IMG/VR virus record: IMGVR_UViG_3300037042_003972
Span: 1 to 36,588 of that record
Reading direction: 5' to 3' (one strand)
Length of the DNA stretch: 36,588 bases
Source: a virus
The first letter of the stretch is position 1, and each line of letters begins with the position of its first letter. Under the pieces are notes generated by a model. That model did not search any database. It was not told the DNA's origin and saw only the letters and a list, made by a program, of their open reading frames with translations. The position numbers and the translations under genes were made by a program. Shown here piece after piece: positions 2,521-34,414 of the stretch.

Positions 2521-3122
2521 CGGTGGCCGAGCAGATCAGAGCAGTCCAGTCTGTGCTTGGAATCACACCCGACGGGGTGGCCGGTCCGGTGACGTGGCGA
2601 GCGATTCACGCCCGGATCTGCGGTGAGTTTGCAAAACAGCCACGCCCAACCCAAGGTTTCACCGTTGATCCAAGGAGCGCAAAAAACATTTCCGGCCTTA
2701 TGGAGCCGTTACAACGCACGGCCGAAGCATTCCTTGAGCGGTGCCAGGCTGAAGGGCTCGGTGTGAAAATCATTTGCGGGGTCCGCACTTTTGCGGAGCA
2801 GGACGCCCTTTATGCGAAGGGACGCACGATCACGGGGGACGTTGTGACGAAGGCCAAGGGCGGCCAGTCTTGGCACAATTTCGGGCTGGCGTTTGACATC
2901 GGCGTCTTTTCGCATGCTGGAGATTACCTTGAAAATTCTCCAAACTACGCAGCCGCTGGCCGGATCGGGGAAAGCCTCGGGCTGGAGTGGGGCGGCCGGT
3001 GGACACGCATGCCAGACGCTCCGCATTTCCAATGGCGCCCACCGTGGGCGATTGGCCTTTCCGATTCGGCGGTGCTCTCCGAGCTCAACCGCACCCGTTC
3101 ACGGGGTGTCCGTACCGCCTGA
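2517..3122 (+). CDS. Endolysin: M15-family (VanY/CwlK-like) peptidase
   Basis: Encodes 201 residues that cleave peptidoglycan stem peptides (L-Ala-D-Glu or D,D-peptidase type) to release progeny. Residues 1-35 look like a short peptidoglycan-binding helix bundle (AVQSVLGITPDGVAGPVTW, the common G-x-x-G-P-x-T-W pattern). The catalytic domain spans about 55-175 with M15 zinc and catalytic residues visible: SWHNFGLAFDIG gives H120 and D127, PHFQW gives H170, and R90 in GVRTFAEQDALY is the conserved Arg region. There is no signal peptide, so release depends on the holin. The start overlaps the lipoprotein stop (ATGA). The 3' end overlaps the convergent helicase gene by 24 bp. Confidence 0.9.
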   Translation: MTVAEQIRAVQSVLGITPDGVAGPVTWRAIHARICGEFAKQPRPTQGFTVDPRSAKNISGLMEPLQRTAEAFLERCQAEGLGVKIICGVRTFAEQDALYAKGRTITGDVVTKAKGGQSWHNFGLAFDIGVFSHAGDYLENSPNYAAAGRIGESLGLEWGGRWTRMPDAPHFQWRPPWAIGLSDSAVLSELNRTRSRGVRTA

Positions 3123-4445
3123 CGCTTGGAAGACTGACACCAGCACCGAGTTGCGTGTCACCTGTTTGCGCCGGATCACGCCTGCAAGCAGGGCAGCCCG
3201 GATCCCGGCATCGGCGGCTTCTGTTGACGATGCGAGGCCCGCGCCGGTGAGTTTCTTCACTAGGGTCCCACGGTCGGCCACCTCACCCCCTTCGGTCAGA
3301 ATGTATCCTCGCACCTCGGCTGGTGAAGGTTCACGCTTCCGGGATCCGCCTTTTCCTCCCCCCACCATCCCGCGTTCCCACTCGTCGAGGTTGAACTCAG
3401 ATTCCGAAAGACGCTCGTACCACATGGTTCGTTCGTTCAGTCTGGCGGCAAACGGCTTCCATGCCCGACCGTTTGAGTTCTTGCCACACCCGACTATGAT
3501 GATTCCAGGGTGCTGGGTTCCGGCGCTTGCCACGTTGATCTGGGACCGCAGCCATCCGATCAGTACCTTCGAGTTCCGGCCGAAGCTTGCAGCGTCATCC
3601 CCGAAAACCTTGGAAGCCTCGGCAGCCCCGGTGCGCCCGTGGTGAATTACGAGCGGCGTGGATTTCGGTGAAGCCTCTCGAACGGCCGACGCAATGCCCC
3701 GGCACATGTCCGTCATGGCGCCATCCTCGTTAGGGTCACCCGCCCCGGCGTCACGCAGCGGGTCAATCCCGACGATGTGCGGCCGGAAGCCGCGAAGCGT
3801 TTTGACAATCGGTTCCCGGTCCCGGTGGTCCTCGTTCATTATGATGCTTGCGAACTCCATCCGGCCGACGTCGAGAATGCGTAAGCAGTCCCTGACGGCC
3901 TCGCGTTCGGTGGTTGTCAGGTCTGAAACCATCCGGCTCAAGTCGTACTGAAGTCGGCGCATGTTATTTTCGGTCTGCAACAGCATCCACCGAAGCCCCC
4001 GGCCATTAGTTTCCCACCCGAGAAAGTCGGAGCCGATAATGGTGCAGATTGCGCTTTGCAGCATCAGTCGGCTTTTGCCAACGCCCGGGGCGCCGATGAT
4101 CGCGGTTGGGTCACCCATCGAAAGAATCCCCCCCGGCCAGATTTCTTCCCGGGGATCTGCCTTGTAGGCCAGCGCATCGTCAAGGTTGACCATGGGAAGC
4201 GCCTCGGCGGTCTTCCGAGGTTCCCGGGCTGCGGCCTGCGCAATCTCCCATGCCGCCCCGGCCGCCGCCCACCCGCACTTCGGGCAGCATGCCGATCCCG
4301 CCGGTTGGTCTGGATCTAAACTGAATCCAAGGTCTGCAACGCAGCGAGGACAGGCGATGACCGCCGCTTCAGGGTTGCCCCCGGGGTCCGGGTGGCAGAG
4401 GAGATTGACGGTTCGGAAGGCATTGAAGATTTCGGAGATTCGCAT
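3099..4445 (-). CDS. RepA-like hexameric replicative helicase / AAA ATPase with N-terminal zinc ribbon
   Basis: Encodes 448 residues. Residues 32-57 hold two Cys pairs (CPRC and CCPKC), a probable zinc ribbon. The RecA-fold core has Walker A GAPGVGKS (118-125), a Glu after a strand (LLQTE, E160), Walker B HIVGIDPLRD (about 223-232) and a sensor-like VIHHGRTG (266-273). This is the pattern of RepA/AAA_25 helicases of plasmids and phages. The last 75 residues (PSPAEVRGYIL...) look like a winged helix. It follows the primase and starts 130 bp inside that gene's 3' end, with no Shine-Dalgarno site visible. The zinc ribbon lies at the edge of the overlap, which supports this early start. It probably unwinds phage DNA with the primase. 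It is the last gene of the leftward arm. Confidence 0.82.
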   Translation of the reverse strand: MRISEIFNAFRTVNLLCHPDPGGNPEAAVIACPRCVADLGFSLDPDQPAGSACCPKCGWAAAGAAWEIAQAAAREPRKTAEALPMVNLDDALAYKADPREEIWPGGILSMGDPTAIIGAPGVGKSRLMLQSAICTIIGSDFLGWETNGRGLRWMLLQTENNMRRLQYDLSRMVSDLTTTEREAVRDCLRILDVGRMEFASIIMNEDHRDREPIVKTLRGFRPHIVGIDPLRDAGAGDPNEDGAMTDMCRGIASAVREASPKSTPLVIHHGRTGAAEASKVFGDDAASFGRNSKVLIGWLRSQINVASAGTQHPGIIIVGCGKNSNGRAWKPFAARLNERTMWYERLSESEFNLDEWERGMVGGGKGGSRKREPSPAEVRGYILTEGGEVADRGTLVKKLTGAGLASSTEAADAGIRAALLAGVIRRKQVTRNSVLVSVFQASGGTDTP

Positions 4446-5530
4446 GGGGTTGGCAGTTCAAAGGGGGCGTAGAAATAAACTTCCTGTCGGACGGTTTCAA
4501 GGCTGGGTTCTTCCCATCCTTCTGGGAGGCTGGCGGCCTCTGGCTTTTCTTTTCTGGGGCGGAGCCCGCCAGGCAGCCGAACAAGCTGGCACTTGTTCCA
4601 GGTGGCTGGATCCGCACCCACCCGTGCGGCAAACGTCATGAGTTTCTGGGCGGTTTCCTCAGACTCAACCGGCCCGTACCACCCGTGCAGTGATTTACCC
4701 CCGGAGTGGACCGCAAGGCGCATGGTGGGCCACCCAAGGCGCACCGCTTGGGCGTTGAGATACCAGTGCAACCCGGCCTGCTCATCAATGCTGCCTTGAT
4801 CGAACTCGAGCACCACCCAGCGCCGGGCGCCGGTGTTCCCGAGGCACCGTGGGGAAGGGCGCCCGTCCTGCGTGGCCCCGAGGCGGGCGGTCATGGGGTT
4901 GGCCACCACCAGCGCAGCATCCGCCGGGAGCACTCCCCATTCTGGCCGGCGCTTTGTGGCGGCTGTCTTGGGGTCCGATGTCCCTAGGCAGACAAACTCG
5001 GAATGTCCGAACAGCTTGGCGATCCACCCCCCCGGGGCAGCCCCGGCTGGAGGGCGGATGGGGGACCGTTCAAAGAGGTCGTACAGAGAACCCACCCCGG
5101 AGCCCTCGGCCCGGGTGCATGCCAGTTCGACGGCAACCCCATCCCGGCGCGGCCACCGAGGGCGAGGGGCGACCACGGGGGAAGGTTGACTCGGTTCCGC
5201 CGGGCGATTGTCAAGGTTCTCAACGGCGTCGGGCTCCGGCACCCCTGCCCACTCGTCATCGCCATCAAGAACCACCGTGGCGGCTTCCAGCCGGGTGGGT
5301 TTCCACGCGGATCCGGACGAGTTGCGGATGGCGTTGCGGATTTCGGTGACAGGCACCAGCCGCTTGCAAGAGCGGGTGGCCGCCACAAGCGCGGCTTCGA
5401 TCTGCTCAGGATCCCAGTGCGCGTGCAGTTGACGGGCAACCCGAAAAAGCCACGCATGCACCCCGCCTCCGGCCTCGGGAGGGTTGGCTAGTAGTTCGGC
5501 CAGCCACGCCGGAATCTTTCGGAGTTTCAT
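4316..5530 (-). CDS. Archaeo-eukaryotic-type (AEP) DNA primase
   Basis: Encodes 404 residues. The N-terminal 75 residues form a helical domain (IPAWLAELL...ITEIRNAIR-like pattern) seen in virus primases, followed by an acidic and Pro-rich linker (about 85-130). The catalytic part has the expected AEP motifs: an acidic strand VVLEFD (239-244), SGGKSLHGW (276-284, the S-x-H-type motif) and QLVRLPGG (315-322). The C-terminal about 50 residues are Ser/Pro-rich and probably disordered; they are encoded in the stretch that overlaps the helicase gene. The start forms TGATG with the upstream small gene. Pairing with a RepA-like helicase gives a priming-plus-unwinding module. No polymerase gene accompanies it. 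Confidence 0.75.
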   Translation of the reverse strand: MKLRKIPAWLAELLANPPEAGGGVHAWLFRVARQLHAHWDPEQIEAALVAATRSCKRLVPVTEIRNAIRNSSGSAWKPTRLEAATVVLDGDDEWAGVPEPDAVENLDNRPAEPSQPSPVVAPRPRWPRRDGVAVELACTRAEGSGVGSLYDLFERSPIRPPAGAAPGGWIAKLFGHSEFVCLGTSDPKTAATKRRPEWGVLPADAALVVANPMTARLGATQDGRPSPRCLGNTGARRWVVLEFDQGSIDEQAGLHWYLNAQAVRLGWPTMRLAVHSGGKSLHGWYGPVESEETAQKLMTFAARVGADPATWNKCQLVRLPGGLRPRKEKPEAASLPEGWEEPSLETVRQEVYFYAPFELPTPCESPKSSMPSEPSISSATRTPGATLKRRSSPVLAALQTLDSV

Positions 5531-6446: not shown

Positions 6447-6668
6447 TTGGTTGATGTTTTCCAAAAGGTTCCTAATCACGGATGCTTGGAAGGATTGGTT
6501 GTGGACTTGGTGGAAATCCACAGCCTGCTCAATGCAGGAAATTGTTTTAAGCAACTCCCTCCTCGCCTCATCCCTATCCTGTAGGGCTTCTTTAAGCTTC
6601 GCCCGCAAAATAGATTCGCGATCTAACACCCTCTCTGGTGGGATCTCATTAATTTCGTCGTCACTCAT
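6429..6668 (-). CDS. Short coiled-coil protein, unknown function (cassette between direct repeats)
   Basis: Encodes 79 residues, MSDDEINEIPPERVLDR followed by a charged, probably helical coiled coil (ILRAKLKEALQDRDEARREL) and a shorter second helix. The gene begins in one copy of the 34-37 nt start repeat and ends in the other, so it is bounded by direct repeats and could be gained or lost cleanly by recombination. It overlaps the next gene by 8 nt. Strong AGGAGG upstream. No family is recognised. Confidence 0.58.
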   Translation of the reverse strand: MSDDEINEIPPERVLDRESILRAKLKEALQDRDEARRELLKTISCIEQAVDFHQVHNQSFQASVIRNLLENINQRRKHE

Positions 6669-6681
6669 TTCGCTTCCTCCT
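6645..6681 (-). repeat. Start-cassette direct repeat, copy 2
   Basis: On the minus strand, AGGAGGAAGC (6681-6672), GAA, then ATG and 21 nt (6668-6645) identical to 6436-6413. Closely similar ribosome sites without the shared codons stand before the starts at 6074, 5808 and 7042. Confidence 0.9.
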
Positions 6682-7042
6682 GTTTGATTTCCTTGATCGA
6701 GTTGAAGGCTTCGGTTGCGGCCCAGTATGCCAACTCTCTAAACTCCTGCATTTGACAAGTGTTGGCGTAAAACTTGAAAATCAGTTTCCGCTGATTTGCT
6801 ATTGTGGATTTGTTTGCAAGCAAGAAAACCTGAACGACAGATTTTCCTGCGTCATCCTCGTCGACTTCGACTACAAAATCTACACGCTCGCAAGTGAGTA
6901 AAGGGACACACGAAGCAAACCTATATGTAAAGTCAGGGAATTGACGCGCCCTATCTCCATCAACTGAACCAAAAACGTGTAAAAATCTTCTGAGGTGCAG
7001 CTCTGAAGCCGCAAACGCATCCCTCTGCGCCTCGTCAGTCAT
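6665..7042 (-). CDS. Early accessory protein, unknown function
   Basis: Encodes 125 residues (MTDEAQRDAFAASELHLRRF...). The start at 7042 is preferred over upstream codons because AGGAGGAAGTGAA stands immediately before it and it overlaps the MazG-like gene stop in ATGA. The sequence looks mixed alpha/beta, with an acidic middle (DFVVEVDEDDAG) and two scattered cysteines. The end IKQEEAK is encoded by the next ribosome site. No family is recognised. Confidence 0.55.
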   Translation of the reverse strand: MTDEAQRDAFAASELHLRRFLHVFGSVDGDRARQFPDFTYRFASCVPLLTCERVDFVVEVDEDDAGKSVVQVFLLANKSTIANQRKLIFKFYANTCQMQEFRELAYWAATEAFNSIKEIKQEEAK

Positions 7043-13544: not shown

Positions 13545-13820
13545 TTATCCGTCCGACGGTTGCAATATCTTTTTTGGATTTTTTTTCGGTGCCCTCGTGA
13601 AATAGCGGTGCGTGGCCAAAAAATCGGCCACCCCGGAGTAGTGCGGGGCGAGCCGGTGCAGCAGTGCCTGTGTGAGGTCGCCCCGGTGGGCGGCGTCCGC
13701 CTCGGCCTGCAACTGGGTTGCGAGCACTCTCGGCAGCGAAAATGTCTTCCGAATTCGGTCTGGGTGTCTGTCCATTTGCACCCCACCGTCGGACGCCCCC
13801 GGGAATATGTCAACCGTCAT
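13545..13820 (-). CDS. Ribbon-helix-helix (CopG/Arc-like) DNA-binding protein, likely early regulator
   Basis: Encodes 91 residues. Residues 23-61 fit a ribbon-helix-helix: a strand (IRKTFSLP), helix A (RVLATQLQAEADAAH), a Gly turn, and helix B (DLTQALLHRLAPHY). A short C-terminal basic tail follows (RAPKKNPKKI). It is the first gene of the leftward arm and reads away from the control region, where five GGTAT direct repeats at 11-bp spacing and a 20-bp dyad lie 40-140 bp upstream of its start. RHH proteins bind such tandem or dyad sites, so autoregulation and early/late control are plausible. A GGAAG ribosome site is weak. Confidence 0.62.
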   Translation of the reverse strand: MTVDIFPGASDGGVQMDRHPDRIRKTFSLPRVLATQLQAEADAAHRGDLTQALLHRLAPHYSGVADFLATHRYFTRAPKKNPKKILQPSDG

Positions 13821-13860
13821 CAGGCTTCCGCTTCGGGGCTGTTTTGTTTAACAGGTGTCC

Positions 13861-13936
13861 CTCATACCTAATTACGGTATGCCGTCGGTATTGCCTTAGG
13901 TATGAGAACGGTATTGCAGCGGTGTTTTACAGGTAT
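13861..13936 (+). repeat. Helically phased GGTAT direct repeats with an inverted copy (operator/iteron candidate)
   Basis: GGTAT starts at 13876, 13887, 13899, 13910 and 13932: spacings 11, 12, 11 and 22 bp, i.e. one face of the helix. An inverted copy (ATACC at 13864) makes an 11-bp inverted repeat CTCATACCTAA (13861-13871) / TTAGGTATGAG (13896-13906). This matches binding sites of cooperatively binding regulators or replication initiators. Confidence 0.65.
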
Positions 13937-13956
13937 GTATAACCAGCTGTTTATAC
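13937..13956. promoter_or_regulatory. 20-bp dyad, operator candidate
   Basis: GTATAAcCAGCTGtTTATAC is a palindrome over 20 bp with a single mismatched pair (13943/13950). It directly follows the GGTAT repeats and overlaps TTATAC-like -10 elements on both strands, so a bound dimer would block or recruit polymerase. Confidence 0.6.
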
Positions 13957-13992
13957 ACTGTACCAACAAAATGGCCTTAAAATACCCCCCTT

Positions 13993-14018
13993 GGGGTGGG
14001 GGCACCGGGGGGAGGGGG
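13993..14018 (+). other. G-quadruplex-capable tract
   Basis: Four G-runs of 4, 5, 6 and 5 with loops T, CACC and A: GGGG at 13993-13996, 13998-14002, 14007-14012 and 14014-14018. This strictly satisfies the usual G4 pattern on the plus strand. It overlaps the left arm of the long hairpin, so the two structures would compete. Confidence 0.7.
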
Positions 14019-14054
14019 TGGCCCCCTTTAGGGGGTCCCCCCTCCTCCCCCGGT
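14004..14054. other. Long GC-rich imperfect hairpin/cruciform
   Basis: Arms 14004-14026 and 14031-14054 with loop TTTA (14027-14030). The inner stem CCCCC/GGGGG is perfect, the outer ACCGGGGG/CCCCCGGT is perfect, and a few mismatches lie between. There is no U-tract on either side, so it is not a standard intrinsic terminator, though it could block both polymerases or serve replication or packaging. Confidence 0.6.
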
Positions 14055-14092
14055 ACACCACCACCGCAATCAGCGTTTCGGAATTGCAGTTG

Positions 14093-14118
14093 AGCGATAA
14101 GCGATAAGCGATAAGCGA
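14093..14118 (+). repeat. AGCGATA tandem repeat (3.7 copies)
   Basis: Perfect heptamer AGCGATA at 14093-14099, 14100-14106 and 14107-14113, then AGCGA. Located between the GC block and the small terminase gene, where a terminase binding (pac/cos) or origin repeat would be expected. Confidence 0.7.
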
Positions 14119-14188: not shown

Positions 14189-14282
14189 CGCCAAGGCATA
14201 GGCTAGCAGTTGAGCAAGCCGCCCGGCAGGGTGACCATAGCGGAGCCCGGAAAAAGGGGCGTTTTTTTGGCGTTTACGGAGC

Positions 14283-14747
14283 ATGGCAAAAAACCGGTTG
14301 CCAAAACCCGGTGAGGGGCAGAGCGTGTTTTGCATGCCCAGGGTTATGCGCAGCCAAATACCTGTCGAAGTACTGGAGTCGGTTTTTGATCGGCTCGCGG
14401 CCGGCGAAACCATGGTCGAGATATGTGCGTGCAAAGGCATGCCGTCGCATAAGACAATTTATAGGCTTCTGGAGGAAAACGCGGAACTGAGACAGAAGTA
14501 CGCGCAGGCACGAGTGAAACAAGCCGACACATTCGCCGAACAGATCGTGGCCGAATCTCGCAAGGCAAAGGACGCGCAGCTTGGGCGGCTACGGATGGAC
14601 GCACTCAAATGGGCGGCCTCGAAAATCGCCCCGAAAAAATACGGGGATCGGGTGGAGCTGGAGCACTCGGGTGAGCAACCGTCCATCGTTGTAAAAATCG
14701 GGGATGCCATCGTGCCCCCAGGGCAACCTCCGAAAAATAATGCCTGA
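14283..14747 (+). CDS. Terminase small subunit (DNA recognition)
   Basis: Encodes 154 residues. A helix-turn-helix-like N-terminal half (VDRL-like helix, AAGETMVEICACKGMPSHKTIYRLLEENAEL) is followed by a helical segment (YAQARVKQADTFAEQIVAE) and RMDALKWAASKIAPKKYGDRV, a pattern typical of small terminase proteins that bind the packaging site and oligomerise. The start at 14283 has GGAG close upstream; ATG 14345 (MRSQIP) is a possible shorter start. First gene of the rightward arm. Its end overlaps the large subunit start by 8 nt. Confidence 0.8.
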   Translation: MAKNRLPKPGEGQSVFCMPRVMRSQIPVEVLESVFDRLAAGETMVEICACKGMPSHKTIYRLLEENAELRQKYAQARVKQADTFAEQIVAESRKAKDAQLGRLRMDALKWAASKIAPKKYGDRVELEHSGEQPSIVVKIGDAIVPPGQPPKNNA

Positions 14748-25388: not shown

Positions 25389-27014
25389 ATGCCACGCATC
25401 CCACTCGCAGACATTCCGAACGCTCCGGCGCCTGTGCAGCAAGGCCCCGGGAACATCGGATCCCTTGGGCAGGTGAATCTTGCCCCGCTTGGTAGGCAGT
25501 ACCAGCGCAGCCTGTTGCAGCAAGGAAGCTTTGACGGCCCAGCTAAGGGCTTGCAGGCGCTTGGGCAGGCCGGTGGTGAGATCGCTGGAATGCTCGGAAA
25601 GATTGCGCAGGCGAAGGCGGAAGCAGAAGCGGACACGGCCGCAATCGAGGCGGGCAACCGCATGCAGGTTGAGTTCGCTGACTACACTTCAAGGCTGACA
25701 CCGAGCACACCAACAGACGAGTTCGTGAGCGGCTGGCAGTCCCGATTTTCGCAAGTGAAGCAGGAGGTGCTTGGTGACCAGAAGCTTTCACCGCTGGCCC
25801 GGCAGAAGATTGAGCGCAGCGCCTTGAAGCTGGAAGGTGAGTCGATCGCCAACCTGACCACGGCTGCAAACCGCGAAGTTTTCAAGCGTTCGATGAACGC
25901 GCATGAGCAGATCCTTGAACAGAAAAAATCTCGTGGTGATTGGGCTGGCGCTGGTGAGGTCGTTGCGGAGCTGGATCGAAAAGGGCTTATTTCTCGAGAT
26001 ACAGCAAACGCAATGGCCGAAGGGATTGCGTCTGAGTCTGAACTTTATATGGCAAAAAATGCCATTGAAGGGGATCCGATCTTGGCACTTTCCTCGCTTA
26101 ATGATCCGACCCAGTTTACAAGATTGACGATTAGAAACAGGGAACAGCTGAAAGATGAGGCAGGCCGTTCTATCAACCGAAGAAAGGCCGATTTGTTGGA
26201 ACGCATTCGGCTTTCTTTTGAGAATAACCAGTTCGATTCGCTTGAAGATGCAGAACGCTTGTCGGGATCGTATTGGGACGACAAGCTCAAGGCTGAAACG
26301 CAGGTTCTTTTCTCAAGGAAAATGGGTCCGAATGAGGATCTGAAAAACGAACTGGATGCAGGTATCGACGATTACGAACCGACCTCTGACCCAGACGGCA
26401 AAAAGCGGTACGAAATCGAACGGAAGGTGAAGGCATTTGTGCCTGATGGGTTTAAGCAGGGATTCCTTGACCGCATTTCAAGGAAGGCAGGCCCGAGGAC
26501 ACCTTCAAGCCAAGTGGAGTCTCTTGCAAGAGATGTTTTAAAAGCGGCGCGTGACTCTGGTCAATTTGGTGAACTCCATGAAGATTTTTTTAAAGGTAAT
26601 AAAGAAATGCCCGGAGAAACGGTTTTGGATTTTTGGATCAGCGAGTGGGGTAAGACAAAGTCTGAACAGTGGAAAGCAAAGCGGGATGAACGTGATGAAA
26701 CCTTGAAAAGGTACAATCAGGCGAGCGACAGCATTGACCGCTTTTTGCGTGAGCATCCAACATCAAAACGCACAGATGCAGTTTTAGAAGCTAACAAAAT
26801 CCTTGGAATTTTTGGTGCTGAAAAATTTGGGCGAGAAACATTTACTTCCCCAACCAAGACCCAAAGCGGCACCATGAATAAAGTGAAGGGCTTGTTTGGA
26901 GGCACTCCAAAACCCTCCGATGTGTATTCCCCTTTACCTGCAAACAAAGGCAGTTCACCTGTTTCACCGGGTTCATTGACCGGCCCAATGGAAAGCCCTA
27001 AAAAAGACCGATGA
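25389..27014 (+). CDS. Internal virion (core) protein, T7 gp15-like position
   Basis: Encodes 541 residues. Segments LAPLGRQYQRSLLQQGSFDG and PAKGLQALGQAGGEIAGMLG precede a mainly helical charged body with EQILEQKKSRGDWAGAGEVV and ELDRKGLISRDTANAMAEG, a helical-repeat style seen in phage ejection-channel proteins. No enzymatic motif. The C-terminal third (from about 26500) is notably AT-richer than the flanks and ends in a Ser/Pro/Gly tail, suggesting mosaic origin. Assignment comes from order (gp14-like, this, giant gp16-like) and composition. Start aacccATG without Shine-Dalgarno; end overlaps the giant gene in ATGA. Confidence 0.68.
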   Translation: MPRIPLADIPNAPAPVQQGPGNIGSLGQVNLAPLGRQYQRSLLQQGSFDGPAKGLQALGQAGGEIAGMLGKIAQAKAEAEADTAAIEAGNRMQVEFADYTSRLTPSTPTDEFVSGWQSRFSQVKQEVLGDQKLSPLARQKIERSALKLEGESIANLTTAANREVFKRSMNAHEQILEQKKSRGDWAGAGEVVAELDRKGLISRDTANAMAEGIASESELYMAKNAIEGDPILALSSLNDPTQFTRLTIRNREQLKDEAGRSINRRKADLLERIRLSFENNQFDSLEDAERLSGSYWDDKLKAETQVLFSRKMGPNEDLKNELDAGIDDYEPTSDPDGKKRYEIERKVKAFVPDGFKQGFLDRISRKAGPRTPSSQVESLARDVLKAARDSGQFGELHEDFFKGNKEMPGETVLDFWISEWGKTKSEQWKAKRDERDETLKRYNQASDSIDRFLREHPTSKRTDAVLEANKILGIFGAEKFGRETFTSPTKTQSGTMNKVKGLFGGTPKPSDVYSPLPANKGSSPVSPGSLTGPMESPKKDR

Positions 27015-30000
27015 TTACCGACCTTGAAGCGGACAAGCTGGCGGACGAGTACCCGAATGCATCGCCAGAGCGGAAACCGCAGATTGAAACGGCCCTTCGG
27101 ACTTGGGTTTCAGCATCTGAGGCGGAGGCCGCTGACCGTGCGCGGGAGGGGGCCGCCCGGCTCCGGCAGTCTTTCAAGTCGGTGTCTGACTTGGGCGGGC
27201 TCTGGACCAAGGAACAGGAACTCCGGCTCCCCCCGACCGATAACCCCGACGAGGTGAAGGCCCGCGTGGCGAACACCGCTTTTCTGGCGGAAGCCGGGGG
27301 CATGGATTACGACACGGCCGCGAAGACTTACGAGGGGCTCCGGGCGAGGTGGGCGCAGGCCACCCTTGGTAAGAAGGACTCCGGGGATCTGGAGATGTAC
27401 TCTGAGGTATCTCGGCAGTACCAAGACGGGGAAGACAAAGCGAAGCTGGCCTTCCAACGTGACGCCGACGCAGCCTCCCGGGGCTTCCAGCGTGCGCTGG
27501 AGAATGCCCCGCCGGACTGGAGCACACCGGAATCTGAGTGGCGGAAAGGCGCTGAGAAGGCGCCGGGCTTTGATGCGAACTGGGGGTTTGGGCTGGAGCA
27601 GTCGGTAGCCTATCGGGACGCATTCCAGAGGGCTTTCAAGGTTGCCACCGAACACCGGCCGCTTGTGTTGGAAACGCTGGACACGCTCAAGCGTGGCACC
27701 AAGTGGATCAACCAGGGGGCAGGACTCAGTGAAGAGGCTGCAACCCGGCTCATGGAATTGCCCGACGCAGAACGGGCTGACGTGCTCCGTGCCATTGTCG
27801 CCGGGGCGGCTTCGATGTCTCCCGAGGATCCCGGGGCAGCGGTAAGCAACCTTCAAAAGGTTTTCAAGAACATGGGCATTTCAGCCTCCCGAGGGCTGGA
27901 CGCATTGAGGCTTTCCAAGGTTTCGCAGGCGTTGTCTGCAGCTGATGCTGCAAGCGCACTTGAAGCGATCAAGGATGGGAAGCCAGTTTACGACTTGGGC
28001 GGGGGTAGGATTACGCCAAGCTTAACGGCGGTCCAAGGCGCGTTCGGTTTGGAGGTTTCGATGCAAGCTGCGGATCCGGTCCCGGCTTCAGAGATCCCGG
28101 CGCTCACCAAAAAGCTGGAGGGCACGTTGAAGTTCTACCAGATCACAAATCAGCTTGAACAGGTGTCGAGGCAGTACCTTGACCCGATCCGTCCAGCGTA
28201 CAAGACCGGGATCGGTTGGGTGGGCGAAACCATGGCGGTTGGGCTAGCCGGATCCGCGCCGCAGATGGTGGCCGGAGCCATCCCGGGCGTTGGGCTGCCT
28301 TGGATGACTGCAAGCTTTGTGGATTCCGCCTATGAGCGGATTGTGGCGGACCAACCCGACATCGACCCACGGTCAGCACTTGCCATGGCAACGGTTGCCG
28401 GGACCATTGAGGGCGGGATCGAGATGCTTCAGATCCGCAACGCAGTCGGGCTTCTTCCAGCCACGTCCAAGCTTGTGCAGGCGCTGCGCACCCCGAACGT
28501 CAATCTGTTCAAGGAACTAGGGATTCAACTGGGCAAAAACGTCCTTGAGCAGAACGTGGAAGAGGCGCTTCAATACCTCGCCTTGCCGGTTGTCAAATCC
28601 ATCGGGGCGGCCCTGAACAAAGACATCGATGGCGTAACCTGGGCGCAGGAATGGCAGGAGTTCGGCGGCACCCGCCTGGAAACCTTTTTGGGGGTGTTGC
28701 CGTGGACTATCTTCGGCGCAGGAGCCGCCGGGATCCGGGAAACCACGGCATTCAGGAATCTACTGGCGAGCGAACAGTCGCTTGTTGAGTACGGCCTCCC
28801 TCGGGAGGTGGCAGCCAATATCGTGGCGCAGGAAACGCCCGAGGCGCGGCAGGCCGTGTTTTTCGAGGAACAGAGCAAGCGCACCCCGGAGAGCATTAGG
28901 GCGGGCATTGCGGAGGCGGAGGCCCGTGTTGCTCGTGAGACTGTGGCAGCGACGTCGAACGAGACGCCCACCATGGTTTATGAGGGCGGGAAGTTTCGGA
29001 TCGTGGAGCCGGACGGAAGTTCGTCCATGGCGTTTGACGATCCAGAAACGGCATCCTTGGCGCTGCAAAGCCGCAACGAATGGGAGGAGACCGGGGCAGC
29101 CGTGGCGGTGCGCGAGCTTGCCGACTGGCTTGGAATGCGGGATTCCGACAAGCGCAAATGGGAGGTGGTGCCGAAGATCGTGACGCTGGAGGACGACAAG
29201 CTTGCAACGCCGGAGCAGATCGCGGAACGGATGCAGCTTGCGGGGCTGGAAGGGCTTGCGCCTTCCGAAGCCCAAGTGTTCGGACAGAATGTAACCGAGG
29301 TCCGGGATGGCATGGTGCGCGTGGTCAACTCGGTGTTCGTCGGCTCCAACCCCTTGGACGTTGTGGAAGAAGAGGGGCATTTCCGGTTCAGGCAGGAGAT
29401 GGACGCAGGCACAATCACCCGGGATCAGGCGGAAGCCGCAGTGCGTGCGTTCCAAGGTGACCGGGCGCCGCAGACGTTTTCCGATCAGGTATTGGATGAA
29501 GGCGTGGCTGAAATGGTGCGGGCCTATTTCGCAGGGAACACCCGGTTCATCCGCAACCTTCCCAAGAGCGTTCGGTCGTTTTTCTTGCGGATGGCAAAGT
29601 TTTTCCGGGAGACATTCCGAAACGCAGCCAAGCTCAAAAGGCTGATTCGAGAAGGGAAGATTGATGCGAACTGGGTGGCGTTCCTGAACAGGTCCGTTGG
29701 CCTGACTGAAGCAGTGCAAGAGCAGGAAGCGGCAATGAAAGCCGCTCAGGATCTGACCGGGCAGCCCGCTGAAATTGTCACGCGCTTCAGCGTCAGGAAG
29801 AAAAAGGCACCCAAGGAGGAAGCTGCCATTGATGAAAGGCACCTGAACCTTGCGCCGGCTGAGTACATTGGAGGTCGTGGAACAGTTTCCACCCGAGTTC
29901 CAACTGCAAAAAAGGCAGTGGAATCACAAGAGGTTCTCCACATCAACCTTGAAGCCGTCAACCAGTCCGAAGAACTAAAGGCAAAGCTTGCCCAGAATCT

Positions 30001-33000
30001 TCGTGATGGAGTTCAAGAAGGAGGGAGATCGGTAAAGTATTTGACCGACGAGCAGGCCGCTGGAACTGACGATGAAGTCATTAGGCACTTCATTGATTTG
30101 GTGAAAAGCAACCTGCTCTGGTTGTGGGATAAGTTCCCCGAAGAGTACAAGGAGCGGGCAAAGCTTTGGTATGTGGGGGCAAACAAAATTGCAGAAGCAT
30201 GCGCTGAGTTTTACGGGGTAACCGTTGAGCAAGCGGCCGGAGTGCTTGCGGTTGAAAGCCCTCAGAAGGATTGGTTTCAGAACGTGTCCATGGCCGAAAG
30301 GATCATGCGGATCTGGAAGCGGGCGATGAAGGAAGACTTTGTCTTCACCCAAGAAAGATTTGACTACTGCTACAACAACGATGTCGAAGAGGTCAAAGCT
30401 GTTGCAGAGTCTGAGTTCAAGCCTCGAATTTTCAAACCAAAGAAATGGAGTAAGCGTTCTGGAGTTTCAGAGGAGGAATTCAACGATTCAGAAGAACAGC
30501 GCAAAAAGGATCACAGAAAAAAAGAGCGTGAACGAAAGTCCGCTTTTCTTGAAAAGCGAGAAAAAGCCAGGGTTGAGTTCATAAAGAAAAACGCAAAATG
30601 GGAAGCCATTAGACCTCGCGCTGTTGGGAAGCCATGGAGTCAACTTGACTACGACGGGAAAGCCCGTCTTTTCCGTGCCCTTGATGAAATGGAGGGCGAC
30701 CGATCATACAGGATTATTCTGCCAGAAGGCGGACGTGGTGAGATTGCTCTGACGTCAAAGGGTGAGCCGGCCGTGGTCGCATGGAGCAGCTACAACTTCA
30801 TAGCCAAAGCTTTTTCAATACTTGACGATGGAAGCCTTGAGAACATTTCGAGAAACCTTGGCGAAGAGCACAAGGTTAGGAATTTCTTCAACAACATTTC
30901 AGACCCGCACAACGCAAAGGGGTATGTCACAATTGACACCCACGCGATTGCTGCCGCTCTTCTGAATTCGTTGTCTGGAACATCAAAGGAGGTAGAAGAC
31001 AACTTTGGAGCAGCGGGTAGTGACTCTTTTGTGGGGGTTGGCGGAACCTACGGAATTTTTTCCACAGCATACAAAGAGCTTGCAGATGAACTCAGCAGGA
31101 TTCTTGGAAGGCAGGTGCTTGCCCGTGAAGTTCAAAGCGTGACATGGGAAGCCGTCCGACTACTATTCACCAAGGAACAGAAGACATCTGGGAAACTCAC
31201 TCAACAACTTGACGCACTTTGGAATGAACACGCAGAAGGAAAATCCGGAATTGATGATGTCCGCGGAAGGATTTGGGATCTCTCAGGCGGAATTCAGCCT
31301 CCAAGCTGGGCCAATACTGAATTCGGGTATGATGCTCAACAAAGCGGCGTGGCTGGAAATGTTCTCGACGGGGGCCCTTTCATTCCCCTTGGACGCAGAG
31401 CTGGTGGCGCAGATACCTCGATGGATTCCCGGGAGGGTTCCCTCCAGCAAGACGGAGTTGTACGCGGATTTGACTTTCAGAGGTCAGCCCGCTTCAGCGT
31501 AGGCCGCAGGGCGGCGCCGTATGCGGAGCAGTTGGCGGCGCAGATGGATGCGCTGAAAACAAAGCCCACCGTAAGGATCCAGATCTATGAACGCGCGAAG
31601 AAAAAGTTTCGAGAACTGGTGGAGAGAAACCGTGCTGCCATCGCTGAAGCGCAAGCGGCCGACACGCGCAAGCCTGCGGACATCATCGAAGAGGCGAAGG
31701 CCACGCATGACGCAGAGGTGGCGCGGATCGACGCAGAGCGGGACGCAGCCCTCGCTGAAGCCACCACGGACAAGCAGCGAAACACCGCCAGACTGGTTCA
31801 CGGAACCAAACTGAGGGCGGCCAACTTGGCGCTTTCCAAGGCGCTGGCGGCTGCCACCGGCGAAGGCACGCGGCAGGCCCGGACGGCTCAGGTGGTCGGA
31901 GAACTAAACGCCATTCTATCCGCATTCCCCGCCGAGGTCCGTGGGCGCGTTGGCGGGTTTGTTCAGCTTGCAAATCTGAAGACCGAAACCGGAAGAGCAA
32001 ACGAACTTTCGAGGCGACTTACCAAAGCGGAAACCGAACTAGAAAAACTGCTTCGGAAGGAATACCGGGCGCAGCTTGATCGGGTTCTTGACTCATACCG
32101 TCCGCAGCGTGAGGCTGGCAAGAAACCAAAGGGAAAGATTGGAGCGCAGGCGCAAGAAATTCTTGACGCGGCGGAGGCTGCAATGGTCATGGATACCACG
32201 GAGGTGGCGGCGCTGGTTGCAAAATACGACGCGCTTGCAAATGACCCAGACGCAAGCCCGGAAGACGTTATCAAAAACGGAACCATCCGGGACATCCTGC
32301 CTCTGCTTGGTGACATAAAAAATGCCAACTCTGCACGTCTTGTTTCAGCGATTGATGCGGTGAAACTTGTTGGGAGTGAAGGGTGGGCACGCTGGAAATT
32401 CCAACAGCTTCAACTTAAGGAGGACCGTGAGATTGCAAGAAAGGGCCTTGTTCAAGACACCGGAAAAACAGGAGTCCGTGCAGAGAGGGTTGAAGCCGAA
32501 AAGAATGCGGTTTCTGTTGCCGGGAAATCTTTGACCGCGCTTCTGAACCTTTCATCATTCTCTCAGGTTGTGGACTACCTTTTCGGGGCCGAATCAAAGT
32601 TCGGCGCTGAATTCAGAAAGCGTGAAATGGAAGCCTCAAACCAACTTGAGGACAAAATGGATTCGCTGAACACTGCAATCAGCGACCTGTTCACAGAGAT
32701 GGCTGGGGGTGTTGTTGATGGTGAACGGCTGCATTACAAGCTTTCCCAGCGTTCGATCAAAACCGATCAGGGAGAGTTTTCAGAACTGGAAGCATTGACG
32801 GCCGTCTTGATGTGGATGCAGGAGGACGGGAAGCGGCACATGATCGGGAAGCTTAACGAAAATGGGCAGCCCGCTGACGCTTGGCATTACAACCAAGATT
32901 TTGTTGATGCTCTTACCAAGTCTCTTTCACCAGAGGCCGTGAAGGTCATGGATTGGTTGCGAAAGCAATACGATGCAGAGCATGCCGAGTTGAATCCGTT

Positions 33001-34414
33001 GTATCAAAAGCGCCACGGGGTTTCCCTGCCTAAGCATGAAAACTACTCTCCGATCTCGGCAAACCCGCAGCAAACAAAACTCGGGCAGACGGTCGACCCT
33101 GTGTCTGGCGCCCCGGTTTCGGGCTCAATTCTCACCCCTGGCTCACTTCGAAGCCGGTCTTTGACTGCCGTGGCTGAACCCAACTTCAGGGACGCCCTGA
33201 AGGTCTTTCTTGCGCACAAGAGGTCCATGGAACACTGGGCGGCCTACTACGATCTTGCAGTTGATGCACAAGCCATCCTCGCGCATAGGGACGTCACGAA
33301 CGCAGTTGATGCAAAGGCAGGACCGGAAGGGAAGACGGTACTGACTGGGTGGCTGAATTACTTTGCACAGGGCGGAATCCGTGAAGCCGCGGCCAGCCTT
33401 TCGATCAGCAGGCAGTTGAGTAGAATGCTCGGCCGTGCGTCCATGATGGCGCTCTTTGGTCGGGCTTCAACGGTCATGGTTCAATCAACCCAGCTTGCGG
33501 CTGCGTCAGTGAAAATGCCGTTGGGCGCATACGTTCTTCGGCTTTCAAAGCTGATGTCAGGTCAACTTGGGTGGGGAGACGCAATCAAATCCGAGTTCAT
33601 TCAGCGTAGAATCAAGCAGGCGCCGGCAATCGTTCAACAGGCGATGCAGGCCCTTGGAGACGCAGGCAAACCCAATTTGATAAAGCATGCCGCTCGACAA
33701 GTAGGGAAATTGATAACGGGGGCGGACGCCCTCTTCACCGCTGGAACGTATGCAATTCTTTTGGATTTTCACAAAGGCAATGCTGCGGAACTAAATTTGA
33801 CCGGACTAGAGGTTGACATGTTTGCGCATGAACAGGCTGCACAGGACACAGAGGCCGTGGCGCAGCCCACCCGTGCCGCTAACCGTTCGCTCGCTGAATT
33901 GACGGCAACGCACCCAATGGCTCGCCTTGGGTGGTCATTTGCGAGCGAAGCAAGGCAGAAGATTGCGCTTACTTCATGGGCGTTGCAGGGAGGCAATGCC
34001 TCTCAGATTTCAAAAACCATGTTTCTAACATTCATCGTCGGCGGCCTATTCACGCAGATCCTCAAAAACCTTTGGAGGGAAATGAAGGGAGACGACGACG
34101 AAGAGAAGTGGAACGCAAAGCGGTTGGCCATTGCCTCAGTCACCGGACCGCTGAACGGCATTCCGGGATTCAACGCGCTCACCGGGGACGGCGGGACCTT
34201 GTTTTCAAAACTCAAGCAAACCGGACGCGCCGGGGAATCCCTGTTGGAGGGTGACCAGTCTGCGGCGCAGGTGGTGCAGGGGATGAACACGCTGCTTTCT
34301 GCAATGGGGCTTTTCTCCGATAACGCAGCGGCCTTGTCTGTGATGGGCAATGTGGCAACAGACGCAGCGAAACTGCTTCAGAATGTGAGCGGAGAAAAAA
34401 CGTCTTCAAAATAG
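27011..34414 (+). CDS. Giant polyvalent internal virion protein (T7 gp16-like position), 2,467 residues
   Basis: Takes one fifth of the genome. Parts in order: helical core-protein-like N-terminus (1-600), with a hydrophobic GLAGSAPQMVAGAIPGVGLP near 410; a degenerate zincin-like segment VEEEGHFRF (about 785) with DEGVAEMVRAYFAG (about 832), in which Glu stands where HExxH needs its first His; RFSVRKK (925-931); a 565-residue AT-richer insert with ESPQKDWFQN (about 1083), KVRNFFNNISDPHN, TIDTHA (about 1308) and QSVTWEAVR (about 1375), resembling the phage DUF7178 type; RFSVGRR (1494-1500); a long coiled coil (1500-1850); and a C-terminal helical region with GRASTVMVQSTQLAAA typical of polyvalent phage proteins. 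It is probably packed in the head and ejected first. T7's transglycosylase motif was not found. Confidence 0.8.
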   Translation: MITDLEADKLADEYPNASPERKPQIETALRTWVSASEAEAADRAREGAARLRQSFKSVSDLGGLWTKEQELRLPPTDNPDEVKARVANTAFLAEAGGMDYDTAAKTYEGLRARWAQATLGKKDSGDLEMYSEVSRQYQDGEDKAKLAFQRDADAASRGFQRALENAPPDWSTPESEWRKGAEKAPGFDANWGFGLEQSVAYRDAFQRAFKVATEHRPLVLETLDTLKRGTKWINQGAGLSEEAATRLMELPDAERADVLRAIVAGAASMSPEDPGAAVSNLQKVFKNMGISASRGLDALRLSKVSQALSAADAASALEAIKDGKPVYDLGGGRITPSLTAVQGAFGLEVSMQAADPVPASEIPALTKKLEGTLKFYQITNQLEQVSRQYLDPIRPAYKTGIGWVGETMAVGLAGSAPQMVAGAIPGVGLPWMTASFVDSAYERIVADQPDIDPRSALAMATVAGTIEGGIEMLQIRNAVGLLPATSKLVQALRTPNVNLFKELGIQLGKNVLEQNVEEALQYLALPVVKSIGAALNKDIDGVTWAQEWQEFGGTRLETFLGVLPWTIFGAGAAGIRETTAFRNLLASEQSLVEYGLPREVAANIVAQETPEARQAVFFEEQSKRTPESIRAGIAEAEARVARETVAATSNETPTMVYEGGKFRIVEPDGSSSMAFDDPETASLALQSRNEWEETGAAVAVRELADWLGMRDSDKRKWEVVPKIVTLEDDKLATPEQIAERMQLAGLEGLAPSEAQVFGQNVTEVRDGMVRVVNSVFVGSNPLDVVEEEGHFRFRQEMDAGTITRDQAEAAVRAFQGDRAPQTFSDQVLDEGVAEMVRAYFAGNTRFIRNLPKSVRSFFLRMAKFFRETFRNAAKLKRLIREGKIDANWVAFLNRSVGLTEAVQEQEAAMKAAQDLTGQPAEIVTRFSVRKKKAPKEEAAIDERHLNLAPAEYIGGRGTVSTRVPTAKKAVESQEVLHINLEAVNQSEELKAKLAQNLRDGVQEGGRSVKYLTDEQAAGTDDEVIRHFIDLVKSNLLWLWDKFPEEYKERAKLWYVGANKIAEACAEFYGVTVEQAAGVLAVESPQKDWFQNVSMAERIMRIWKRAMKEDFVFTQERFDYCYNNDVEEVKAVAESEFKPRIFKPKKWSKRSGVSEEEFNDSEEQRKKDHRKKERERKSAFLEKREKARVEFIKKNAKWEAIRPRAVGKPWSQLDYDGKARLFRALDEMEGDRSYRIILPEGGRGEIALTSKGEPAVVAWSSYNFIAKAFSILDDGSLENISRNLGEEHKVRNFFNNISDPHNAKGYVTIDTHAIAAALLNSLSGTSKEVEDNFGAAGSDSFVGVGGTYGIFSTAYKELADELSRILGRQVLAREVQSVTWEAVRLLFTKEQKTSGKLTQQLDALWNEHAEGKSGIDDVRGRIWDLSGGIQPPSWANTEFGYDAQQSGVAGNVLDGGPFIPLGRRAGGADTSMDSREGSLQQDGVVRGFDFQRSARFSVGRRAAPYAEQLAAQMDALKTKPTVRIQIYERAKKKFRELVERNRAAIAEAQAADTRKPADIIEEAKATHDAEVARIDAERDAALAEATTDKQRNTARLVHGTKLRAANLALSKALAAATGEGTRQARTAQVVGELNAILSAFPAEVRGRVGGFVQLANLKTETGRANELSRRLTKAETELEKLLRKEYRAQLDRVLDSYRPQREAGKKPKGKIGAQAQEILDAAEAAMVMDTTEVAALVAKYDALANDPDASPEDVIKNGTIRDILPLLGDIKNANSARLVSAIDAVKLVGSEGWARWKFQQLQLKEDREIARKGLVQDTGKTGVRAERVEAEKNAVSVAGKSLTALLNLSSFSQVVDYLFGAESKFGAEFRKREMEASNQLEDKMDSLNTAISDLFTEMAGGVVDGERLHYKLSQRSIKTDQGEFSELEALTAVLMWMQEDGKRHMIGKLNENGQPADAWHYNQDFVDALTKSLSPEAVKVMDWLRKQYDAEHAELNPLYQKRHGVSLPKHENYSPISANPQQTKLGQTVDPVSGAPVSGSILTPGSLRSRSLTAVAEPNFRDALKVFLAHKRSMEHWAAYYDLAVDAQAILAHRDVTNAVDAKAGPEGKTVLTGWLNYFAQGGIREAAASLSISRQLSRMLGRASMMALFGRASTVMVQSTQLAAASVKMPLGAYVLRLSKLMSGQLGWGDAIKSEFIQRRIKQAPAIVQQAMQALGDAGKPNLIKHAARQVGKLITGADALFTAGTYAILLDFHKGNAAELNLTGLEVDMFAHEQAAQDTEAVAQPTRAANRSLAELTATHPMARLGWSFASEARQKIALTSWALQGGNASQISKTMFLTFIVGGLFTQILKNLWREMKGDDDEEKWNAKRLAIASVTGPLNGIPGFNALTGDGGTLFSKLKQTGRAGESLLEGDQSAAQVVQGMNTLLSAMGLFSDNAAALSVMGNVATDAAKLLQNVSGEKTSSK
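29783..29793 (+). repeat. 11-bp repeat at the left edge of the inserted domain
   Basis: CGCTTCAGCGT, coding R-F-S-V, is identical to 31490-31500. The two copies are 1,707 bp (569 codons) apart and bracket the AT-richer domain inside the giant virion gene. Confidence 0.65.
31490..31500 (+). repeat. 11-bp repeat at the right edge of the inserted domain
   Basis: Second CGCTTCAGCGT copy, again coding R-F-S-V and followed by Gly-Arg-Arg (Arg-Lys-Lys in the first copy), so the similarity extends at protein level. Confidence 0.65.

Follow-up and report, generated by a model that had tools for sequence, protein, structure and literature searches.

The intergenic element at positions 13854-14059 is probably the replication origin of the phage analysed here, and would be read by the phage's own RepA-like helicase, as judged from comparison of sequences. 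The window, i.e. the whole stretch of 36,588 nucleotides under analysis (IMG/VR record IMGVR_UViG_3300037042_003972), has the appearance of a complete phage genome of about 36.5 kb with 127-bp identical ends. The late arm is located on the plus strand and is podovirus-like, with genes for an Sf6-type small terminase (terS), terL, portal, capsid and tail proteins. The early arm runs on the minus strand from 13820 down to 3099 and includes genes for a Sak4-like annealing protein, a nuclease, a DUF669/SSB-like protein, RusA, a helicase, MazG, a putative primase (no Pfam match was obtained for this product) and a RepA-like AAA_25 helicase. Relatives of the window terL are present in Verrucomicrobiota MAGs, and therefore the host probably belongs to the Verrucomicrobiota. 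Among the scanned proteins of the window no integrase was detected, and no match to plasmid Rep families was obtained. A clear replichore signal was absent from the GC skew at fourfold sites. A single ORF of 2467 aa (27011-34414) takes up a fifth of the genome, DUF7178 being its sole match. The features of the element and of its counterparts are collected in Table 1.

Table 1. Coordinates of the candidate origin, of genes related to it and of similar elements in sister phages (window positions unless a contig is named).
Feature	Position	Strand	Remarks
RepA-like RecA-fold (AAA_25) helicase gene	3099-4445	-	PF13481, 2.2e-19
Primase-like gene adjoining repA	4316-5530	-	Counterpart upstream of repA in L006, L009 and L010/G391, 49-50% identity
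91-aa orphan ORF, weakly RHH-like	13545-13820	-	First gene of the leftward arm; start codon at 13820
Eight-site GGTRT array	13854-13936	+	Steps of 10-12 bp
11-bp perfect inverted repeat	13861-13906		CTCATACCTAA at 13861-13871, TTAGGTATGAG at 13896-13906; two array sites, opposite orientation
20-bp imperfect dyad	13937-13956		GTATAAcCAGCTGtTTATAC; 18/20 symmetric; overlaps weak promoter-like -10 hexamers
AT-rich stretch, candidate unwinding element (putative role)	13957-13985		38% GC in 13920-13979
Large G/C hairpin	13999-14059		z -2.8 (DNA), -3.4 (RNA)
7-bp tandem repeat AGCGATA x3.7, terS leader	14093-14118	+	
terS, Sf6-type small terminase	14283-14747	+	Downstream neighbour of the element in the window and three sister phages
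Array and hairpin, L006	L006:4426-4545		Between repA-like gene and terS
Array and hairpin, L009	L009:4448-4560		Between repA-like gene and terS
Array and hairpin, G391	L128 2255-2360	-	Between repA-like gene and terS
Second array-plus-hairpin element, G391	L128 13290-13400		Core GGCCA; head of early arm

The array comprises eight sites, namely GGTGT at 13854, an inverted ATACC at 13864, GGTAT at 13876, 13887, 13899 and 13910, GGTGT at 13921 and GGTAT at 13932. The successive steps along these GGTRT/AYACC sites are 10, 12, 11, 12, 11, 11 and 11 bp. The first-pass annotation had reported five GGTAT copies in steps of 11, 12, 11 and 22 bp; these were all found, and the count proved too low once GGTGT and the inverted ATACC were included. 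The 11-bp inverted repeat that it described is perfect, and the dyad was present at the length given. Its placement of the feature 40-140 bp upstream of a regulator gene, between divergent arms, was borne out as well (41-136 bp from the start codon of the 91-aa ORF), the full array extending from 34 to 117 bp upstream of this codon in the divergent region.

The array is real and goes beyond chance. In the exact-pentamer test, which was set beforehand, the longest same-strand chain of any pentamer had 5 members in the window, versus at most 4 (in 2 of 60) in Markov-simulated genomes. The corresponding local test gave 5 observed versus at most 3 in 5000 simulations. When GGTRT was followed on both strands, with the R degeneracy and the use of both strands chosen after inspection, a chain of 8 was obtained, and none of 300 simulated genomes went beyond 3. 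A clustered-copy score identified the array as the sole region of the window with at least 6 copies. It is intergenic, and the ORFs that overlap it have negative coding scores.

The dyad is unique within the window genome with up to 3 mismatches allowed and, scanned as GTATAANCAGCTGNTTATAC, was absent from all viral contigs scanned. No strong sigma-70 promoter was detected in the array region, where weak promoter-like sites are present. At its end the AT-rich stretch has another inverted core, ATACC at 13982, which abuts the C-run. Inside the G/C hairpin, the 14-mer CCCCCTTTAGGGGG (14022-14035) is common to the hairpins of the window and of the sister phages L006 and G391, and was found in no other among 132 loci, duplicates apart. 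The Rfam matches were sub-threshold and nearly all corresponded to microRNA models on the GC hairpin; they were discarded as artefacts. Further downstream, the stretch GGTGACCATAGCGGAG of the terS leader (14230-14245) resembles a conserved part of 5S rRNA, and no 5S match to it was given by Rfam. This stretch belongs to a 29-bp block that is identical in contig L004, the only one matched in a scan with the terS leader, and this contig ends before the array. Over L004:1-590 the leader is 85% identical to that of the window at the DNA level and terL 96% at the protein level, while TerS is just 50% identical, indicating a local exchange of terS.

Three sister phages, L006, L009 and G391 (the record of L010/L128), were found by terL with 71-72% identity. 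All of them carry homologues of the helicase, the primase-like protein and RepA. Between the repA stop and terS, each has an array in which a 5-base core is repeated, some copies direct and others inverted, accompanied by a hairpin whose runs of C and G flank TTTA or GTA. The cores are GGACA in L006 (12 copies), TCCAA in L009 (9 copies) and GGACA in G391 (6 copies), and the step is around 9 bp (mostly 6-10 bp approximately, sparser in G391), compared with 11 bp in the window. The second element of G391 sits between a divergent tyrosine integrase gene (L128 13824-15008) and small RHH-like ORFs, and its palindrome, TAACCCCCC-TTTA-GGGGGTTAGTTAT, is nearly equal to that of the first G391 element. 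Since the two arms of the window diverge, its single element fills both G391-type positions at once.

A search for conservation of the repeats in relatives had been proposed in the first-pass annotation. The anatomy was recovered in the sisters, whereas the same GGTRT array was found in no relative. A nucleotide search with the window locus gave no match in phages and plasmids. The exact 11/12/11 phasing was retrieved in two viral contigs, L105 and L106, the latter being rejected as it falls within a coding repeat. In L105, an unrelated AT-rich phage, 13 GGTAT/ATACC copies occur in about 300 bp (6469-6775), four of them in 11/12/11 steps. This array adjoins a primase/helicase-like gene, a location that is no more than suggestive.

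Comparison of the sisters hints at the protein that reads the core. The RepA proteins of L006 and L009 are identical at 295 of 300 residues (98%) over one part, and at only 24 of 48 (50%) in the C-terminal domain; between the same two phages the array core differs completely, changing from GGACA to TCCAA. In turn, G391 and L006 share the C-terminal RepA string RTFRRKWQQ and the core GGACA. The N-terminal 60 residues of TerS group the phages otherwise, with 52/60 identities for L009/G391, 42/60 for L006/G391 and 39/60 for L006/L009. The core thus follows the C-terminus of the helicase rather than TerS. This covariation of the core with the RepA C-terminal domain, drawn from one pair and a third phage, is suggestive. 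It does not extend to the window, as the window RepA is just 22-25% identical to the RepA of L006, L009 and G391.

In a wider survey, RepA-like genes were collected from 388 Verrucomicrobiota genomes, their loci being picked irrespective of terS, and 33 of them were testable. The 400-450 bp following each stop codon were examined, and a pentamer that occurred at least 6 times in a span of 110 bp counted as an array. By this measure 9 of the 33 genes have an array downstream, whereas 1 of 33 has one in-gene (Fisher p = 0.013), and in the interval 600-1000 bp downstream none of 31 has one (p = 0.002); in 20 of the 33 no array was present (at most 4 copies). The nine arrays have 6-10 copies each, and most show a G/C hairpin beside or within them. 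Their cores are GTGCG, TTGCCAA, GCTGCAA, CGAAA, GGGACA, TGAACA, TTGCCA, GTCTCA and CGACTT, the last two being found with genes related to the window RepA. Two of the nine loci, L163 and L167, were retrieved using the window RepA, and in both the array is immediately downstream of the gene.

When the chain test was applied to other relatives, repeats were located within the ORF preceding a DnaC/IstB-like loader (L072) and within probable initiator ORFs (L030, L086 and L087). The phased pentamers of L071, L072 and L030 are coding repeats inside probable replication genes. The phased 6-12 bp repeats inside the probable initiator genes (L072:1890-1931, L030:3389-3450, L087:9270-9330 and L086:9697-9760) recall origins within lambda O-like genes. 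Neither a DnaC/IstB-like loader nor a repeat-bearing initiator module was recognised in the window, where the GGTRT array is the sole array of the kind. It seems that each phage of the group has one array of this type, together with replication genes.

From these data, we infer that the array is read by the window RepA and that replication starts at the element. A sequence-specific initiator would occupy the helically phased GGTRT iterons, several of its subunits lying next to each other along one face of the double helix. Opening of the AT-rich stretch beside them would follow, and the helicase/primase pair would be loaded. Possible roles for the G/C hairpin are those of a barrier, a priming site or a transcription insulator. 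The likeliest initiator would be the RepA-like helicase; its C-terminal domain would make the contact, as in SaPI Rep and SCCmec Cch2. As the element lies within a divergent promoter region, binding of the initiator could also regulate both arms. Several observations speak against the origin reading. The window array is 9.4 kb from repA, the 3' flank of which has no array, and the second G391 element, located beside RHH-like ORFs, would fit an operator equally well. The remoteness of the window RepA from that of the sisters, the small number of phages behind the covariation, the RepA-like genes that lack an array, the different step in the sisters and the GC skew weigh in the same direction.

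The first-pass annotation had offered three readings of this layout, an autoregulated switch, iterons or a centromere-like site. The iterons are best supported, because of the anatomy conserved in the sisters and the joint change of RepA C-terminus and core. For the switch, dimers of an RHH-like 91-aa protein would coat the phased sites and repress their own leftward promoter as well as the rightward one. The position of the array upstream of this gene, in the divergent region, is in line with such an operator, and the early-arm element of G391 likewise lies beside small RHH-like ORFs. On a home-made RHH profile the 91-aa ORF ranked first of 533 window ORFs, although at 5.5 bits, and 2 of 2000 shuffles outscored it, leaving it in third place. 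Its best single match, at 34% over 50 residues, was an RHH protein from the Verrucomicrobiota. AF2 from the single sequence of the full ORF gave, with low confidence, a possible strand followed by helices at 31-45 and 49-57; in contrast, the 46-aa core was modelled as a single long helix rather than a helix-turn-helix, and a fold search with the low-confidence model was empty. The coding score of the ORF is weak (0.15 bits per codon), yet the best of the six frames. The RHH identity assigned to it earlier was not confirmed in databases: no match was obtained in Pfam, NCBIfam, PHROG or PDB, and every Pfam RHH test failed. No homologues were found in viral contigs, phages, plasmids or the 388 Verrucomicrobiota genomes; the sole genomic match (L113), antisense within an rpsA-like S1 gene, was rejected. 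It is possible that the product is a ribbon-helix-helix protein, and also possible that it is an additional binder or autoregulator of the array. Moreover, no strong sigma-70 promoter was detected in the region, and in L006, L009 and G391 the gene upstream of the terS-side array is repA, not an RHH gene. Position and a marginal RHH resemblance speak faintly for the switch, which we consider unlikely. The operator and origin readings are compatible if RepA and the 91-aa protein both use the site.

The site could also serve partition or packaging. The RHH protein ParR recognises tandem repeats located upstream of its own operon and represses the latter (PMC5016525), and the step size of ParR/parC is similar to that of the window array. 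However, the scanned window proteins gave no match to ParM, ParA or any other partition family, and the RHH identity of the 91-aa protein is only possible, so that a ParR/parC-like centromere of a phage-plasmid is very improbable. As to packaging, a ring of Sf6-type TerS might bind the phased sites with the DNA wrapped around it. The window TerS is a homologue of Sf6 gp1, which forms an octamer whose channel is too narrow to admit DNA (PMC9611059, PMC11331095). The eight sites, spaced by 11-bp steps, would match eight HTH domains that point outward, and the array is upstream of terS in 4 of 4 phages. Nevertheless, L009 and G391 differ in core while their TerS N-termini are the most alike, L006 and G391 share the core despite less similar TerS, and the genomic arrays follow RepA-like genes at loci chosen irrespective of terS. 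These results make packaging improbable. Finally, a chance cluster or a functionless coding repeat would agree with the lack of the same GGTRT array in the relatives found, and is hardly credible in view of the simulations, the intergenic location with negative coding scores and the same anatomy in the sisters.

The origin reading finds parallels in described systems. SaPI Rep and SCCmec Cch2 bind short iterons downstream of their own gene by a C-terminal domain (PMC7581432). The iterons of Cch2 are 5-nt (AAGTG), in direct and inverted repeats (PMC7581432). The likeness to SaPI consists of a helicase initiator with a C-terminal origin-recognition domain and of an origin with multiple short iterons that directly follow the helicase gene (PMC7581432, citing Ubeda et al. 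2007). SaPI Rep is described as being of the DUF927 or the D5/Primase_Cterm type (PMC7581432), unlike the RecA-fold AAA_25 helicase of the window. Other differences are the prominent G/C hairpin of the window and the location of its array, which is not beside the helicase gene; an array just downstream of this gene is found in L006, L009, G391 and the 9 of 33 genomic loci. The putative origin of SCCmec shares the 5-nt direct and inverted iterons downstream of the helicase gene and a primase partner encoded nearby, but has three iterons compared with eight phased sites in the window, and another helicase family (PMC7581432). On this reading the element would work like the SaPI and SCCmec origins, yet its helicase lies outside those families.

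RK2 and R6K iteron plasmids also combine phased repeats beside an AT-rich unwinding region with cooperative initiator binding, although their iterons are 17-22 bp long and bound by non-helicase Rep proteins (PMC4980987). Such a Rep is a winged-helix initiator, and the window has instead a 5-bp core in 10-12 bp steps. At ParR/parC and other operators, RHH proteins recognise short repeats, tandem or inverted, and repress their own expression (PMC5016525), a resemblance limited by the lack of a motor protein among those found in the window and by the merely possible RHH status of the 91-aa protein.

In phage P4, the alpha protein is a primase-helicase whose C-terminal winged-helix domain reads short iterons, and two cis regions, ori1 and crr, are involved. 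G391 has two elements as P4 has two cis regions; alpha belongs to a different protein family from the RepA-like helicase.

The phages and genomes compared here may tentatively be seen as a widespread new replicon type of the Verrucomicrobiota. It would consist of a RecA-fold RepA whose C-terminal reading domain can be exchanged, and of an array that matches this domain, with a short, freely changing core and a G/C hairpin; both would be swapped together to switch origin specificity (replication incompatibility). In the window, the origin would have moved away from the helicase gene into the divergent control region, and there a small regulator could compete for its sites. No description of an AAA_25 version with a G/C hairpin and joint exchange of domain and core was found in the open-access papers searched. 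If the origin reading is true, the anatomy of a short-core array plus a G/C hairpin would pinpoint the origin in many phages that have not been cultured, where sequence comparison fails because the core varies among phages. The L006/L009 pair, whose differences are nearly confined to the reading domain and the repeats, would then represent a natural experiment in which the specificity of origin and initiator changed jointly.
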